37,245 nucleotides of DNA from positions 1-37,245 of IMG/VR virus record IMGVR_UViG_3300027983_000043, one strand, 5' to 3'. Every line of letters begins with the position of its first letter. Positions within the stretch are counted from its first letter, which is position 1. Positions 8,569-26,164 of the stretch are shown one piece after another. Made by a program: the position numbers and the translations under genes. This DNA is from a virus. A model generated the notes under the pieces. The model worked only from the letters and a program-made list of their open reading frames with translations, did no database searches and was not told where the DNA came from.

Positions 8569-8647
8569 TTACATCCGGATTTTCCTCCCGAACCTAGCAG
8601 CCGCTGGGTATTTTTCGTTTTAAAATATATTTTGAGTTTTGAATAAG

Positions 8648-9460
8648 ATGCAATTCAGTAGACATCCAAGCTATTTCGATTTCGATCTAGCGCGAAAACA
8701 AGGCGACTACGCAAAGCGGTTCACTGCTGGTTACGAGATCGCGTCTACTGTAAAAACCGGGCTCTCTCTTTTTGAAAAAAATGTCTGGGCTCCTGCGCTG
8801 CTTAAAGACAACTACCGTTTGCAGGAAAACTTCATTCAAGCGCAGCTGTTTGGTATCGATATCGACGATCCTGGGTACGACTTAGCGCAGGCATTAAACG
8901 AGTGGTGCGATAGCTTTCACATTATCGGCACAACAAAAAATCATCAGAAGCTAAAGCGCGGTCTGGTCTGTGATCGGTTTAGAATCATCGGTGCATTTGA
9001 AAAACCAATCACTGATTCTGCGCAGTATGTCCTTAATATAAAAAGCATTCAAAGCAAATATGGCGGCGTAGACACATCATGCCAAGAGCCCGCTCGTCTA
9101 TTTTATCCTTGCGCTAAGGTACTTAGTCACTGCTACGATGGATACCTCTACCCTGTGCAAGAATTTCAAGTGCGCAAAAGACCTCAGATTCAAAAAATCT
9201 ACGAGGGCGGAACACTGCCTTTGTGGGTTGTTCATTTTCTTTCGAAAGGCGAGCTACCAGCATTTAACAAGTTTGCAGACAGCCGAAACTGGACGATCTG
9301 GCTAGTGGCTCTTGCGATGCTGAACTCTGGTTATTCGCCAAGTGATATCGAATCTAGGGTCAATGCTGCTCCGTTCAACAGGGAAGGGATAAAAGACAGC
9401 GACGTGAAAAGTCGAATCAAGAGTGCAGTGAAGAAATATGCAAAGGAGTGCGAAGTTTGA
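8648..9460 (+). CDS. Archaeo-eukaryotic primase (PrimPol)-type DNA primase
   Basis: The 270-residue protein begins MQFSRHPSYFDFDLARKQGD; a TTG three codons earlier is possible. It has the AEP core. FGIDIDDPG supplies the D-x-D metal motif, and SFHIIGTTKNHQK supplies the x-x-H motif. DRFRIIGAFEKPI and SCQEPARLFYPC supply the third strand/basic motif. A C-terminal helical region (SPSDIESRVNAAPFN) is like those of phage primases. It is followed with a 4-nt overlap by the helicase-like gene, giving a split primase plus helicase rather than a fused enzyme. It should synthesise primers for phage replication. Confidence 0.8.
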   Translation: MQFSRHPSYFDFDLARKQGDYAKRFTAGYEIASTVKTGLSLFEKNVWAPALLKDNYRLQENFIQAQLFGIDIDDPGYDLAQALNEWCDSFHIIGTTKNHQKLKRGLVCDRFRIIGAFEKPITDSAQYVLNIKSIQSKYGGVDTSCQEPARLFYPCAKVLSHCYDGYLYPVQEFQVRKRPQIQKIYEGGTLPLWVVHFLSKGELPAFNKFADSRNWTIWLVALAMLNSGYSPSDIESRVNAAPFNREGIKDSDVKSRIKSAVKKYAKECEV

Positions 9461-20491: not shown

Positions 20492-21306
20492 GTGATTTAG
20501 AAGCAGAAGTTACACAGGCAAACACCGACGACGAGATTGAGATTCATTACGACGACAAGGGTCTATCGTTAATGAAGTTGATCAAAAATTGGCTTGGCAC
20601 AACCAAAGCGATAAGTGAAATCCCTGCCGAGCTTTTCGAGTTAACCGAACGCGAGTTAATGAAAGAGCCCGACGATGTTCACAGGCGTCTAAAGATTTCT
20701 TTTTGGAACGAGTTCAGCGCAGCGCAGCGTCAGAAATCCGAGTACATGACTTTGCAGAATGTGATTCACGGCGTTTGCTCTTATTCGTATTGGAAAAATA
20801 AAGTTGTTACTAATCCCACTTTACTTGCGTGGCTTATCACGCCTCCCGCGCATCAGACCCTGGTATGGCAGGAGTTAATTCAGCTCGGCGAGAATAAGTT
20901 GCGCAGGGCTCTCAAGATTCAGCTCGTAGAAAAAAGATTCTGGAAAGACAAGACGGGCGAGGTCCATGTTGAGAAACGTGCGAACGTGGCTTTGATAAAA
21001 GAAGTCCGCTCCATCGTGGAAATGTTGCAAAACCGCTTGCATGGTACGGTCGTCCAGCGGCAGGAAATCCAGTCTAAATCTTTGCACGTGAATGTTAATC
21101 AGAATCAGAAAGATGTGGCACAGGACAAGCCGATGTCTGCTGACGAGCAAATGGGCGAGATTGACAAAATGCTTAAGCGCATTGAGAAAGTCGCCGCTGC
21201 CATGCCCGAGTTACCTGAAGCCGAAGTTGAGAGCGAAAGCGATCTCGTAATGAAAAAAGAAAAGAGAAAAAAGTTTGTCGAAACAGAGGCCACTTACGAG
21301 GAGTGA
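20488..21306 (+). CDS. Putative terminase small subunit
   Basis: The 272-residue product starts at GTG (MSDLEAEVTQANTDDEIEIH) with GGGAG upstream. It has a helical central domain (IPAELFELTERELMKEPDDV, LLAWLITPPAHQTLVWQELI, KLRRALKIQL) and a C-terminal part with a Gln/Asn-rich stretch and a coiled coil (QMGEIDKMLKRIEKVAAAMP), then a basic/acidic tail. Its position directly before terL, with a 32-nt overlap, and its oligomerisation-type helices fit TerS, which recognises phage DNA. The assignment is mainly from position. Confidence 0.6.
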   Translation: MSDLEAEVTQANTDDEIEIHYDDKGLSLMKLIKNWLGTTKAISEIPAELFELTERELMKEPDDVHRRLKISFWNEFSAAQRQKSEYMTLQNVIHGVCSYSYWKNKVVTNPTLLAWLITPPAHQTLVWQELIQLGENKLRRALKIQLVEKRFWKDKTGEVHVEKRANVALIKEVRSIVEMLQNRLHGTVVQRQEIQSKSLHVNVNQNQKDVAQDKPMSADEQMGEIDKMLKRIEKVAAAMPELPEAEVESESDLVMKKEKRKKFVETEATYEE

Positions 21307-23674
21307 GGAAAAACTCCTCGCTGATAAAAAGCGCGTTTTGCTCCAGAAAAGAGAGGAGTTCAAAGACGGGCTCCCCTTTTTATATGGGCACAAGTGGTAT
21401 TCTTGGCAGAGGCAATTTTACAATTCACGCTGTAATATGCGGTTATTCTCGGCTGGTAATCAATTGGGCAAAAGCTCGGTACATCAATGGGATAAAATAA
21501 ATCGCGCAACAAATTTAAAAATGCACGAAGAGTTTTGGCCAGGTAGAAAGCCGGATCTTTTCTGGTATTGGATGACTGACCAGGCGACACTAGACCGCGA
21601 AGTAAAATTAAAATGGATGCGCTGGTTACCGCAGGGTGCGTTTAAAGATTCTGACCAGTACGGTTGGAAACTCGATGCAAATAAAAAAGGGGAAGAAGTC
21701 AAGGGTATTATTTTTAACTCAGGAATAACACTTGAATTCAAGCTTTACACTCAGAGCCCAAGGAATATTCAGAGTGCGACCGTGTTTGACATGGGATGCT
21801 TTCCTCACGGCACACCCATCATTACAAAAAGGGGCACGATCCCTATCGAGCAGGTAGTGGTCGGCGATCTAGCTCTAAGCGAAGCCGGTTGGAAACCTGT
21901 TGAAAAAGTTATGACCAGAAGGTCGGACGTACTAACAAGAGAGTTTGAAAACGGTGAGATAGTTAGGGCTACTCCAGAGCATCCATACTGGACAAAAAAT
22001 CGCGGTTGGATTGCATTTTCAGACTTGAAAACAAGCGATATTTGCGTTAAACATCCCCTATGGAACCTGATAAAGAAATCGTATTATTCGAAGGTAATTT
22101 GTACACGCGTTTTCCGCAAAGCGATGACGTTCGTATCAAGAATTACTTTAGAGGCTCGCTCGGTAAGAGAAACTCTTCGAAGTTTCTCCATGTCGCTATT
22201 TGGGAAAGCCATAACAGCAGAACCGTTCCAGATGGATATGTTATCCATCACAAAAATTTCATCGCCCTTGATAATCGATTATCCAACCTCCAGCTGCTCA
22301 CCAGAAGCGAGCACACCACAATTCACAAGCTTGAAGAGTGGAAAGAAAAAGGCGTTTACGAATGTACATGCCAGAAATGCGGAGAAGTTTTCGAAACCAG
22401 GAGCTCTAAGAAATTTATTAGGTTCTGTTCTATTAAGTGTAGAAGGGTTACGGAAACTCGCAGTTGCGTATGTTGTGGAAAAGAGTTTGAAGTCAGGGGT
22501 CGGCCAAGCGAACTCAACAAGGTCAGAATTACGTGCTCGCCAGAATGTCGCAATATTAAAAGAATCCAATCAAGAGGTCATCAACCTCACAGTAGCTGAT
22601 TCTCATACCTATTTTGCCAACGGAATTTTAGTTCATAACTGTGACGAGGAAATGCCCCTTTCGTTCTGGGATGAGGCGTCCCAACGTATATCCTCAACAG
22701 GCAGACACTTTTCAACGGGTTTCACCGCGACACTAAATCAACTTATGTGGTGGCGAGCACTGGAGGGTAAAGGTGCATCAGAGAAGTTCCCGGATGCTTT
22801 CAAGTTACAGGTTTCGAAGTTTGATTGTTTGGTGTTTGATGACGGATCACCAGGTTTGTACACTGAAGAGCAAATCCATGAAGAGATTAAGAACTGTTCT
22901 TCCGAGGCCCAAGTAAACCGCAGGATTTACGGTAAATTCGCACCCGAGTCAGGTCTTAAGTATCACGCGTTTGATCCAGCGAGACATTACATCGACCCGG
23001 TGCCGATCCCGATCGACTGGCTAAGATATTCGGGTGTTGATATTGGTTCAGGCGGTGACAAAAATCATCCCGGCGCATTTTTTTTCATCGCTGTGCGTCC
23101 AGATATGAAACTCGGTTATGTATTCAAGGGCCGCAGGCTTGACGACATCGTTACAACCGCAGGCGATATTTTAAATTACTACATCGTCGAACGAGCCTCT
23201 GATGAAATGACGGATCAGGCTTACGATTATCATTCGAAAGAGTTTGGTCTCATAGCTGAGCGGGCCGGTGAAAGTTTTTCGATGGCTAACAAGTCTCACG
23301 AGCTTGGCGAGGACACGATCAACACGTTATTTGCCAATGACATGCTTTTTCTTTTCGATACCCCTGAGGTCAGAAAAATCGGGGAAGAGATGCTGACATT
23401 GATGAAGAGTACGGACAAGAGAAAGGCTGTTGACGACGCTATAGATTCGTGCCGCTACGGATTGATGTGCGTCCCATGGGACTGGACAGCTGCCATTAAA
23501 AAACTAAAGCCCGTTGATAAGAAAGAAGAAAAACCCAGAGCCCTAACGAATGAGGAATATCTTGCCGATGAAATCAAAAGACGCCGAGGCGAAACCAAAG
23601 AGGACGATCAGGAAGGCTGGGGGGAACTCGGAGCAGAGATCGATTTCTGGAACAGTTTATATTCCGGATTCTGA
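21275..23674 (+). CDS. terL: Terminase large subunit, interrupted by an intein
   Basis: The 799-residue precursor starts at TTG (MSKQRPLTRS); no ATG occurs before the ATPase motif. Walker A is GNQLGKSS at residues 61-68. Walker B, TVFDMG|CDEEMP, is split by an intein between Gly174 and Cys456. Removing residues 175-455 restores a continuous motif and a 518-residue protein, normal for TerL. The C-extein carries the nuclease domain (RYSGVDIGSGGDK, KAVDDAIDSCRYGL with acidic residues). It powers DNA translocation through the portal and cuts concatemers. A complete HNH gene overlaps the intein in another frame. Confidence 0.92.
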   Translation: MSKQRPLTRSEEKLLADKKRVLLQKREEFKDGLPFLYGHKWYSWQRQFYNSRCNMRLFSAGNQLGKSSVHQWDKINRATNLKMHEEFWPGRKPDLFWYWMTDQATLDREVKLKWMRWLPQGAFKDSDQYGWKLDANKKGEEVKGIIFNSGITLEFKLYTQSPRNIQSATVFDMGCFPHGTPIITKRGTIPIEQVVVGDLALSEAGWKPVEKVMTRRSDVLTREFENGEIVRATPEHPYWTKNRGWIAFSDLKTSDICVKHPLWNLIKKSYYSKVICTRVFRKAMTFVSRITLEARSVRETLRSFSMSLFGKAITAEPFQMDMLSITKISSPLIIDYPTSSCSPEASTPQFTSLKSGKKKAFTNVHARNAEKFSKPGALRNLLGSVLLSVEGLRKLAVAYVVEKSLKSGVGQANSTRSELRARQNVAILKESNQEVINLTVADSHTYFANGILVHNCDEEMPLSFWDEASQRISSTGRHFSTGFTATLNQLMWWRALEGKGASEKFPDAFKLQVSKFDCLVFDDGSPGLYTEEQIHEEIKNCSSEAQVNRRIYGKFAPESGLKYHAFDPARHYIDPVPIPIDWLRYSGVDIGSGGDKNHPGAFFFIAVRPDMKLGYVFKGRRLDDIVTTAGDILNYYIVERASDEMTDQAYDYHSKEFGLIAERAGESFSMANKSHELGEDTINTLFANDMLFLFDTPEVRKIGEEMLTLMKSTDKRKAVDDAIDSCRYGLMCVPWDWTAAIKKLKPVDKKEEKPRALTNEEYLADEIKRRRGETKEDDQEGWGELGAEIDFWNSLYSGF
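21797..22639 (+). other. Intein in TerL at Walker B (281 codons)
   Basis: Block A starts at Cys1 (CFPHGTPIITKRGTIPIEQV, VVGDLALS). Block B has the T-x-x-H motif (TPEHPYWT, precursor residues 233-240). Block F is VINLTVADSHTYF and block G is LVHN followed by Cys+1. These are the standard splicing residues of a class 1 intein. The roughly 170 residues between blocks B and F are not a LAGLIDADG or HNH domain in this frame; they are the out-of-frame translation of the HNH gene at 22060-22599. The functional part is therefore a mini-intein with a long linker. Confidence 0.92.
22060..22599 (+). CDS. HNH homing endonuclease nested in the intein in an alternative frame
   Basis: The 179-residue product starts MEPDKEIVLFEGNLYTRFPQ, a full-length HNH N terminus. 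The core is KFLHVAIWESHN, then DGYVIHHKNFIALDNRLSNL, then LLTRSEHTTIHK, with the H-N-H residues visible. Two Cys4 zinc modules follow (CTCQKCGEVF...CSIKC; CVCCGKEFEV...CSPEC). The frame is -1 relative to terL, with an in-frame TAA at 22048-22050, so it must initiate independently. No SD is visible. Its last codons overlap intein block F. By analogy with other intein endonucleases it would cut inteinless terL alleles to drive homing. Confidence 0.88.
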   Translation: MEPDKEIVLFEGNLYTRFPQSDDVRIKNYFRGSLGKRNSSKFLHVAIWESHNSRTVPDGYVIHHKNFIALDNRLSNLQLLTRSEHTTIHKLEEWKEKGVYECTCQKCGEVFETRSSKKFIRFCSIKCRRVTETRSCVCCGKEFEVRGRPSELNKVRITCSPECRNIKRIQSRGHQPHSS

Positions 23675-24023: not shown

Positions 24024-26164
24024 AAAAGCACAGCGCATCTGAGCTGAACACGATGTATGACGAGGCGGTTTCCGTTGATCGGGAGCTGTTTGCTGAAATG
24101 CGTTCGAATGTTCTGCTTTTATCGGGCGAGCACTATCAGAAAAAAGACCGTGACGGCCTTCCGTCTCGTGATCATACCAGGGCTAGAAGCGAAAGATTTC
24201 AGCTTAGGCTCGTAAAAAACCATCTTCATAAGATTATAAGACACTATGGATCTTCAATTCTCTCTTCTGCTCCTGGCGTTGCTGTTACGCCCCAAAATGA
24301 CGCCGACCTCCAGGATCAAAAAGACGCCGAGCTTAATCAGGCTGTTTGGCAGCAACATAAGACTGATTACCGGATTAAAGAGCGAATTCGGCAGTGGGCG
24401 CAGGACTTCCCGAGTGTAGGCGAGCTTTGTTCGTTTATCCGTTGGGAGCCGAATGCTGGCGATGTCACAGGCTACAACCAGAGAGTCGATGAGAAAACCG
24501 GCGAGCTGATGTTTGACGAGATGGGCCAGCCTCTTGGCGACGAAGAGAGCCCGGTCTTTACAGGCAAGTTCGTAATCGAGGATCTATTCGGAGCCAACGT
24601 CTTTAGAGATCCATCCGCGAAAAATATGCGCGATGCCCAGATGATTGGCTTCACCAAAGAGACCAAAAAAGCTGATTTAAAAGCTCGCTACAAAGGCCAG
24701 GAAGAAAAACTCGAAGGCATCGAAAACGGAGCCAAAGAAGAGTTTGTTGTCTTTGATAATGCTAAAAGTTCATACAGCAAATCGGCTAAAGATAGCGTTT
24801 TGCTCAGACATTATTTTTTCAGGAAGTGTGGTGATTACCCGGAAGGGTACTTTTATATTACCGCAGGCCAAACCGTTTTGGAAGAGGGTCCGCTCCCGTT
24901 CGGTATTTGGCCGATCATCTGGGCAGGCTTCGACGAGTTACCGACTACGCCACGCGCAAGATCAATAATCAAAGTAGCGCGTCCATATATCGCCGAGATC
25001 AACAGGGCATCCAGTCAGCTTGCGATGCACCAGATCACGATCGGCGACGACAAGATTCTGTATCAAAAGGGTTCTAAGCTGGAACAGGGCGCACTCTTAC
25101 CAGGCGTTCGGGGCATAAGCTTTCAGGGACGAGAACCGACTGTCCTACCAGGCAGAGACGGAAGTCAGTTCCTGGGTTACATCCAGCAGCAAATCAGCGA
25201 ACTCTATTCTGTTGTTATGCTTTCAGAACTCTCTGAAGAGACGATGACCCAGATGGAGCCGATGTCCCTTTTGTACAGGGCGGCGAGTCAGCAGAAGAAA
25301 TTTTCTCTCTATATTGAGAAATTTGAGCAATTTTTGATCGATTTCGTCACAACTTTGCTTGAAATGTCAAAACACTACCTACCTGATGAAGCCGTTATTG
25401 GAGCCGTCGGTAAGGGTGAACTGATCAATCTCGAAGAGTTTAGAAAAACATCTCCCCTTCGCTACCAGATAAAAGTAGAGCCCCGAGCCGATACTTTGGA
25501 CCAAATGCTAGGTCGTCAGATGACTTTCCAGAACATACTGCAATATGTCGGAAAGCAGCTCGATAAAGAAGATATCGGTAAGGTCATGGCTCAAATGCCG
25601 TATGCAAATAAAGATGCGTTTTCTGATTTCACTATTGATGAGCAAAACGCGAAAAACGACATGCTCGCAATGGAGCGGGGCCAGTATCCTCCGATTGGCC
25701 GGGGCGATGATCCTGCGAAGATGCTTAAGAAAATTGAAAACCGGATGCGCAAGCCTGACTTTAGGTTTTTAGAACCTCAGATTCAGCAGCTATATGAACA
25801 GCGCGTTCAAGAATACATCGGGATGCAGGCTCAAATCCAAGAGCGCGAAATCGCCATGCAGTCGGACTATATCCCTATGGACGGTCCTTCGGTCAAATGC
25901 GACATGTACACCCAGGATGACCCAACAAAAGCAGCCAGCAGAGCCATGTTCCCGCAGAACGCACTCGCTTGGCTTAAGAAGCGCCTAGAAGCTCAGGGCT
26001 CTTCGTTCCAAATGCTTGAGCAGCTATCACCGCAAATGATGGCCCAGCTCGCTGATCAAATGAATAACGGTAATCAGCCAGGGGGGCCTATGACAGATCC
26101 CTCAGCCGCAGCAAACGGTGGCGGATTACCTCAGGCCATGCCAGGCCAAATGGGGACTATGTAA
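24020..26164 (+). CDS. Portal protein
   Basis: The 714-residue protein follows terL and has the podoviral portal pattern. Near the N terminus are SGEHYQKKDRDGLPSRDHTR, LRLVKNHLHKIIRHYGSSIL and RIRQWAQDFPSVGELCSFIR. A beta-rich middle (LFGANVFRDPSAKNM) follows, then a long helical region with QISELYSVVMLSELSEETMT. The Gln/Met-rich C-terminal helical tail (QMLEQLSPQMMAQLADQMNN) resembles a P22-like barrel. Length is close to P22 portal (725 aa). The dodecameric portal would be the DNA channel and terminase docking site. Confidence 0.85.
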   Translation: MKKHSASELNTMYDEAVSVDRELFAEMRSNVLLLSGEHYQKKDRDGLPSRDHTRARSERFQLRLVKNHLHKIIRHYGSSILSSAPGVAVTPQNDADLQDQKDAELNQAVWQQHKTDYRIKERIRQWAQDFPSVGELCSFIRWEPNAGDVTGYNQRVDEKTGELMFDEMGQPLGDEESPVFTGKFVIEDLFGANVFRDPSAKNMRDAQMIGFTKETKKADLKARYKGQEEKLEGIENGAKEEFVVFDNAKSSYSKSAKDSVLLRHYFFRKCGDYPEGYFYITAGQTVLEEGPLPFGIWPIIWAGFDELPTTPRARSIIKVARPYIAEINRASSQLAMHQITIGDDKILYQKGSKLEQGALLPGVRGISFQGREPTVLPGRDGSQFLGYIQQQISELYSVVMLSELSEETMTQMEPMSLLYRAASQQKKFSLYIEKFEQFLIDFVTTLLEMSKHYLPDEAVIGAVGKGELINLEEFRKTSPLRYQIKVEPRADTLDQMLGRQMTFQNILQYVGKQLDKEDIGKVMAQMPYANKDAFSDFTIDEQNAKNDMLAMERGQYPPIGRGDDPAKMLKKIENRMRKPDFRFLEPQIQQLYEQRVQEYIGMQAQIQEREIAMQSDYIPMDGPSVKCDMYTQDDPTKAASRAMFPQNALAWLKKRLEAQGSSFQMLEQLSPQMMAQLADQMNNGNQPGGPMTDPSAAANGGGLPQAMPGQMGTM

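Follow-up and report, generated by a model that had tools for sequence, protein, structure and literature searches.

The terL-like gene in this stretch of viral DNA (the window, positions 1 to 37,245 of IMG/VR record IMGVR_UViG_3300027983_000043) carries an insert that we read as a mobile composite intein, in which a HINT intein is combined with an HNH homing endonuclease made separately from the −1 frame. We put the probability of this reading at roughly 0.8. The presence of an out-of-frame HNH gene within the intein is confirmed as real; it is no mere oddity and does not come from faulty sequencing, and the window is not unique, since nested out-of-frame HNH genes in inteins form a widespread class. 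In the proposed mechanism, the intein frame would provide the HINT splicing domain and a middle linker needing only freedom from stops, and the same middle, read in the −1 frame, would encode a homing endonuclease of the zinc-finger HNH type, synthesised as a separate protein. Splicing would take the insert out of the packaging protein, making the insertion harmless, and the HNH would cut inteinless terL alleles so that repair copies the element in. Stops arising in the intein frame would break the element into two intein halves on either side of a free HNH gene. The features of the window are collected in Table 1.

Table 1. Composite element of the window and its host ORF
Feature	Position	Strand	Basis or remark
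terL-like host ORF	21275-23674	+	799 aa precursor; 518 aa predicted after splicing
Intein, 281 aa, in Walker B motif (FDMG^CDEEM)	21797-22639	+	PF14890, TIGR01445, TIGR01443; AF2; gp41-1 intein match
N-terminal splicing region (blocks A-B)	21797-22048	+	Profile match; alignment
Intein-frame linker, ~167 aa	22060-22561	+	By-product of reading the HNH gene in the intein frame; low pLDDT; identity as expected from the HNH protein alone
C-terminal splicing region (blocks F-G)	~22562-22639	+	Profile matches; first 38 nt overlap the HNH 3' end
HNH homing-endonuclease gene, 179 aa, ATG	22060-22599	+	−1 frame relative to terL; PF13392; AF2 pLDDT 88.5
HNH_3 catalytic core	22180-22314	+	PF13392 match, residues 41-85
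Paired CxxC..CxxxC zinc-finger region (Cys104-Cys163)	22369-22548	+	Invariant or nearly invariant Cys columns

In the ORF list, the terL-like frame is open across the whole intein/HNH region. Its product has a Walker A-like motif (GNQLGKS), the interrupted Walker B-like motif (VFDMG^CDEE) and, beside these, a nuclease-type motif of the form D..D..CRY (AVDDAIDSCRYG). The spliced protein gave a weak match to the PHROG terminase large subunit (E=0.0036) and none to the named phages, and profile–profile comparison aligned only the nuclease motif, again weakly. The label ‘TerL’ used in the sequence-only reading is thus backed by the motifs, but weakly for the window itself, where the ORF may be the terL of a divergent phage; for ten relatives in the survey it is secure, the host gene being terL in all 10 of the 10 diverse composites tested. 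The window phage is very divergent in general. Only two of ten other large proteins tested (50-36723) had a PHROG match, one of them primase-like (8639-9460), and one relative, L003, was found, at ∼65–69% nucleotide identity.

The intein frame matches Pfam PF14890 (6e-9), TIGR01445 (7e-5) and TIGR01443 (5e-5), and the −1 frame matches none of them. The insert begins CFPHGTP, with Cys1 at 21797, has TPEH as its block B, ends in ANGILVHN, with the HN at 22639, and is followed by Cys+1; it therefore has a nucleophile at position 1, TxxH, a terminal Asn and a Cys/Ser/Thr residue at +1. The AF2 model shows HINT blocks in the N and C parts of the insert with pLDDT values of 94–98, and its top PDB match is the gp41-1 intein 6qaz (Foldseek, 2.5e-6). 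At intein residues ∼140–240 the values are 38–60, and the linker is mostly without confident structure. The intein ORF is unbroken, with the N- and C-intein on one ORF rather than on two as in a fractured gene or split intein. A Pfam/TIGR profile search matched the intein frame of the window to no endonuclease family. No group I intron was found either, as no Rfam family at all reached its gathering score in the window. The insert looks like a splicing-competent intein and probably splices.

The HNH ORF is nested within the terL-like ORF at a codon offset of +2, that is, in the −1 frame, and only in this frame is PF13392 (HNH_3) matched, at 2.5e-14. A stop in the HNH frame (TAA, 22048-22050) lies just upstream of the gene. 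In the family alignment, the window protein keeps the invariant H63, H64, N72 and H85 and two four-Cys zinc motifs, and so has the HNH_3 core with intact H-N-H residues that marks an HNH homing endonuclease in sequence. The AF2 model is confident; the structure closest to it, in a weak match, is that of the homing enzyme I-HmuI. The window HNH stands on a long branch and is without the EWHxSEEGRxWH (EWH..GRxWH) segment of most relatives. No close HNH-bearing relative was found for it, and we therefore judge its activity from the intact residues, which suggest that the window's own copy is probably active. Much of the sequence-only reading is borne out by these results: the splicing blocks are complete, nothing endonuclease-like is found in the intein frame, an intact −1-frame HNH gene with its own ATG is present, the last part of this gene (to 22599) runs into the C-terminal splicing region, and the linker, given there as roughly 170 residues, has ∼167, without conservation of its own.

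That reading had proposed that a frameshift error placing the HNH in frame with the intein would overturn it. L002, a contig named independently, agrees with the window at every position of the element; over 10.6 kb the two differ only at 25735 and 25744. The same architecture is found in 61 other non-redundant loci. An assembly or frameshift artefact is ruled out by this contig together with the recurrence of the arrangement in 62 composites. When the window HNH gene was shuffled synonymously, the intein frame stayed open in ∼3% of shuffles. A chance ORF on the HNH side is excluded by the HNH profile match.

The composites were surveyed with profiles built from the first examples and run on 148 loci from IMG/VR, named phages and GTDB genomes, which fall into 119 clusters at 90% HNH identity. 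Since the loci were picked by similarity to a composite HNH, the figures that follow are counts and not prevalences. Non-redundant, unbroken intein ORFs with an overlapping HNH number 62; the HNH is at −1 in 61 and at +1 in the other, and an in-frame HNH was seen in none. Of the other clusters, 14 are split elements, 34 lack an intein and nine are partial loci. A tblastn search with the window HNH against named phages found matches inside the annotated terL genes of Tetrasphaera phage TJE1 and Acinetobacter phage Highwayman, and further composites were found in Rhodobacteraceae phage LS06-2018-MD07 and a human-gut phage scaffold. In all four, terL carries an intein with the HNH at the same −1 offset. 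A scan of the genome collection gave three composites among 19 relatives. Insertions are usually in the nuclease motif (D..NH^C.D..RY), the window's being in Walker B. Amongst the 56 composites in which both blocks could be scored, Cys1, the terminal Asn and Cys/Ser/Thr+1 are each present in 56, and TxxH in 54. One composite intein (L128 1160-3742) apparently ends in Gln (MIAAQ^C) rather than Asn. The sole composite with a +1-frame HNH (L148 2929-3474 / L149 1562-2107) has as its sister on the HNH tree a free-standing HNH (Poludnitsa, L017).

Across the class, selection acts on both frames. The intein frame is stop-free in 61/61 of the −1 composites, against 5.2 expected to be open from within-gene synonymous shuffling, or 0.7 from free-standing codon usage; expressed as stops, there are none where ∼2.7–4.9 are expected. 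The equivalent frame has 6.45 stops in free-standing relatives (6.77 expected) and 7.21 in split elements (7.16 expected), and in the +1 composite, L148, the intein frame is open against 8.2 expected stops. An absence of stops in composites, with the expected numbers in free and split elements, argues that selection keeps the frame open wherever an intein needs it, and nowhere else. In the HNH phase, the third codon position is the most variable in 164/164 pairs with at least 50% HNH identity, a figure that expresses consistency and not 164 independent tests, because the pairs have branches in common. By these codon positions, purifying selection acts on the family in its HNH phase. For divergent pairs, linker identity was 0.157, 0.191 and 0.234, where conservation of the HNH alone would give 0.154, 0.187 and 0.226. 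The linker thus has no sequence requirement of its own, and a linker selected for its sequence is ruled out, its similarity being matched by HNH conservation alone. Taken across the class, the patterns support the view that both frames are functional, the one as an open intein frame and the other as an HNH protein.

Comparison of alleles indicates that the composite elements are probably mobile. A search with one spliced TerL found terL genes without the insert (L157–L165) whose exteins are up to 99% identical to occupied ones. Between the empty L157 and the occupied L166 (4180-5133), the difference is a 954-bp insertion of intein plus HNH, with flanks that are 97.8 and 97.7% identical in nucleotides, and it is at the level of the class, in this pair, that presence and absence at a fixed site, as expected of a homing endonuclease, is seen. 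The +1 codon is GGA (Gly) in L157 and TGT (Cys) in L166, so that the splicing nucleophile appears to be co-converted, arriving with the element. At one site, L166 and L184 have exteins that are 91.7% identical, inteins at 34% and HNH proteins at 35%, both at −1, which points to independent invasions or turnover. No empty allele of the window's own element was found among terL relatives. At the window's Walker B site, the search for related TerL inteins that had been suggested gave only L003 and the near-identical contig L002; the first intein of L003 is a mini-intein at this very site without an HNH. The proposal that an HNH gene invaded a mini-intein is supported as far as the composite itself goes, whereas two sequences do not polarise gain of the HNH in this lineage against its loss in L003.

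Several loci are in other states. In the second intein of L003 (6732-7448, at the nuclease motif), the core of the out-of-frame HNH is deleted and the intein frame is still open, as in a decaying intermediate. The N-intein, HNH and C-intein are separate ORFs, with mixed frame offsets, in L034, L092, L054, Brochothrix phage BL3 and Vibrio phage 1.245.O. In BL3 (L014 727-2607), terL is split into N-intein, truncated HNH and C-intein, annotated as ordinary genes. Vibrio phage 1.245.O (L015 161-3037) has a further Walker A insert together with a broken nuclease-site intein with HNH. On the HNH tree there are at least 12 state changes, four of them forced by well-supported branches; open, split and free states therefore interconvert repeatedly, and a single origin of the composites is ruled out. 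The life cycle may run from mini-intein to nested HNH, decayed HNH and split intein, and it is plausible that the split N-intein/HNH/C-intein loci are a route to natural split inteins.

The manner in which the HNH is translated bears on two alternatives. Programmed −1 ribosomal frameshifting would make the HNH as a fusion of TerL-N, intein-N and HNH, and would fit both the −1 frame of nearly all composites and their weak Shine–Dalgarno sequences as a class: a strong one was found in 33% of composites and 23% of control ATGs (p=0.19), compared with 13/13 of the split elements scored. Many composites that lack one come from an A/T-rich group including a Bacteroides contig (L103), and Bacteroidota seldom use Shine–Dalgarno sequences. 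However, in-phase slippery heptamers occur in the permitted zone of 11/61 composites, where 6.8 are expected, with none in the window, and the 61 composites have no conserved slippery site. Nor is frameshifting needed for the offset, as the −1 frame of HNH genes is the stop-poor one (∼3 expected stops, against ∼22 in the other), and one composite is at +1. In addition, the median distance from the HNH match back to the preceding stop in the HNH frame is 24 nt, and ATG was the chosen start in 53/61 composites. We consider frameshifting very improbable, and infer that the HNH is translated separately from its own start. The other alternative is that the class works as described but that the window HNH is no longer expressed, its intein being in the course of losing its nuclease. 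The ATG at 22060 has no Shine–Dalgarno sequence, though most other window genes have one, and the long branch and missing segment would also fit. As the catalytic and zinc residues and the 179-codon ORF are intact, the predicted fold is confident, and many composites under selection likewise lack a Shine–Dalgarno sequence, we regard this as unlikely, though still deserving some weight.

Two further readings concern what the HNH does. It might be an accessory nuclease of the terminase, overlapping terL and acting in packaging rather than homing; the family is indeed terminase-associated, its free-standing members adjoin terL, and some phage HNH proteins help terminase in DNA packaging (PMC11855218). 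Against this, terL genes with 98–99% identical exteins do without both intein and HNH, the composite HNH sits inside a splicing element at the intein insertion site, and the closest structure, albeit a weak match, is a homing enzyme; a packaging role therefore seems improbable. A dead remnant of an in-frame intein endonuclease, left by paired frameshifts or assembly errors, is scarcely credible: although the deleted core in the second intein of L003 shows that out-of-frame HNH genes do decay, 0/62 open composites are in frame, purifying selection in the HNH phase is seen in 164/164 pairs, the HH..N..H core is present in 60/61 composites, and the element is unchanged in the independently named contig L002. 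The composite intein with a separately made homing endonuclease is thus the reading we prefer. For the wider proposal, in which these elements are a large overlooked class of phage inteins that free HNH genes enter in the stop-poor −1 frame, decoupling nuclease from splicing and forming an intermediate to split inteins, we lean slightly in favour.

Intein endonucleases are taught as in-frame domains freed by splicing. Like such bifunctional inteins, the window element has a HINT domain interrupted by an endonuclease and would home to a conserved position within an essential gene; unlike them, it has no LAGLIDADG or HNH domain in the intein frame, its nuclease lies in another frame and is not releasable by splicing, and its linker is not conserved. 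A canonical terL intein, at Walker A and with an in-frame LAGLIDADG domain, is present in L222 (1530-3851). The fractured genes of Dassa et al. 2009 are reportedly split inteins flanking a free endonuclease gene. They resemble the present elements in having the endonuclease as a separate gene between intein halves, and L034, L092, BL3 and Vibrio 1.245.O are related loci with the same HNH family, whereas the window and 61 other elements have an unbroken intein ORF overlapping the nuclease gene. Group I intron-encoded and free-standing phage HNH enzymes of the I-HmuI type share the HNH_3 core and the phage homing context, but here the carrier is an intein. Closest in layout are the ShiLan domain and the Pacc40 insertion, with an out-of-frame HNH in phage DNA methylases and explicitly without splicing domains (Arsenault, Gosselin and Gogarten 2025, PMC11855218); another methylase of the ShiLan kind is mentioned in a later announcement (PMC12613952). 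As here, a phage gene has an insert that is open in the host frame with an HNH in another, the distribution is mobile and no ribosome-binding site was found; the hosts there are methylases, with no intein blocks and no known splicing, and the window has a complete, removable intein in terL. No overlapping-frame endonuclease in an intein was found in the literature searched, though a study of actinobacteriophage inteins with ‘non-canonical architecture’ (bioRxiv 10.1101/2025.01.02.630785) may be related. A mobile intein with a homing endonuclease is therefore known; what is new is the genetic arrangement, common to a large class and apparently overlooked.

In dozens of phage packaging genes, then, one DNA stretch would be read twice, as a throw-away linker and as a nuclease. 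Gene callers keep only the long ORF, and the nuclease is therefore invisible; in TJE1 and Highwayman the annotation names only a terminase. The elements also offer a natural case of overlapping genes in which one frame is demonstrably unconstrained save for the avoidance of stops. Finally, with mini-intein, nested HNH, decayed HNH and split intein all represented, the way in which naturally split inteins arose can be tested directly.
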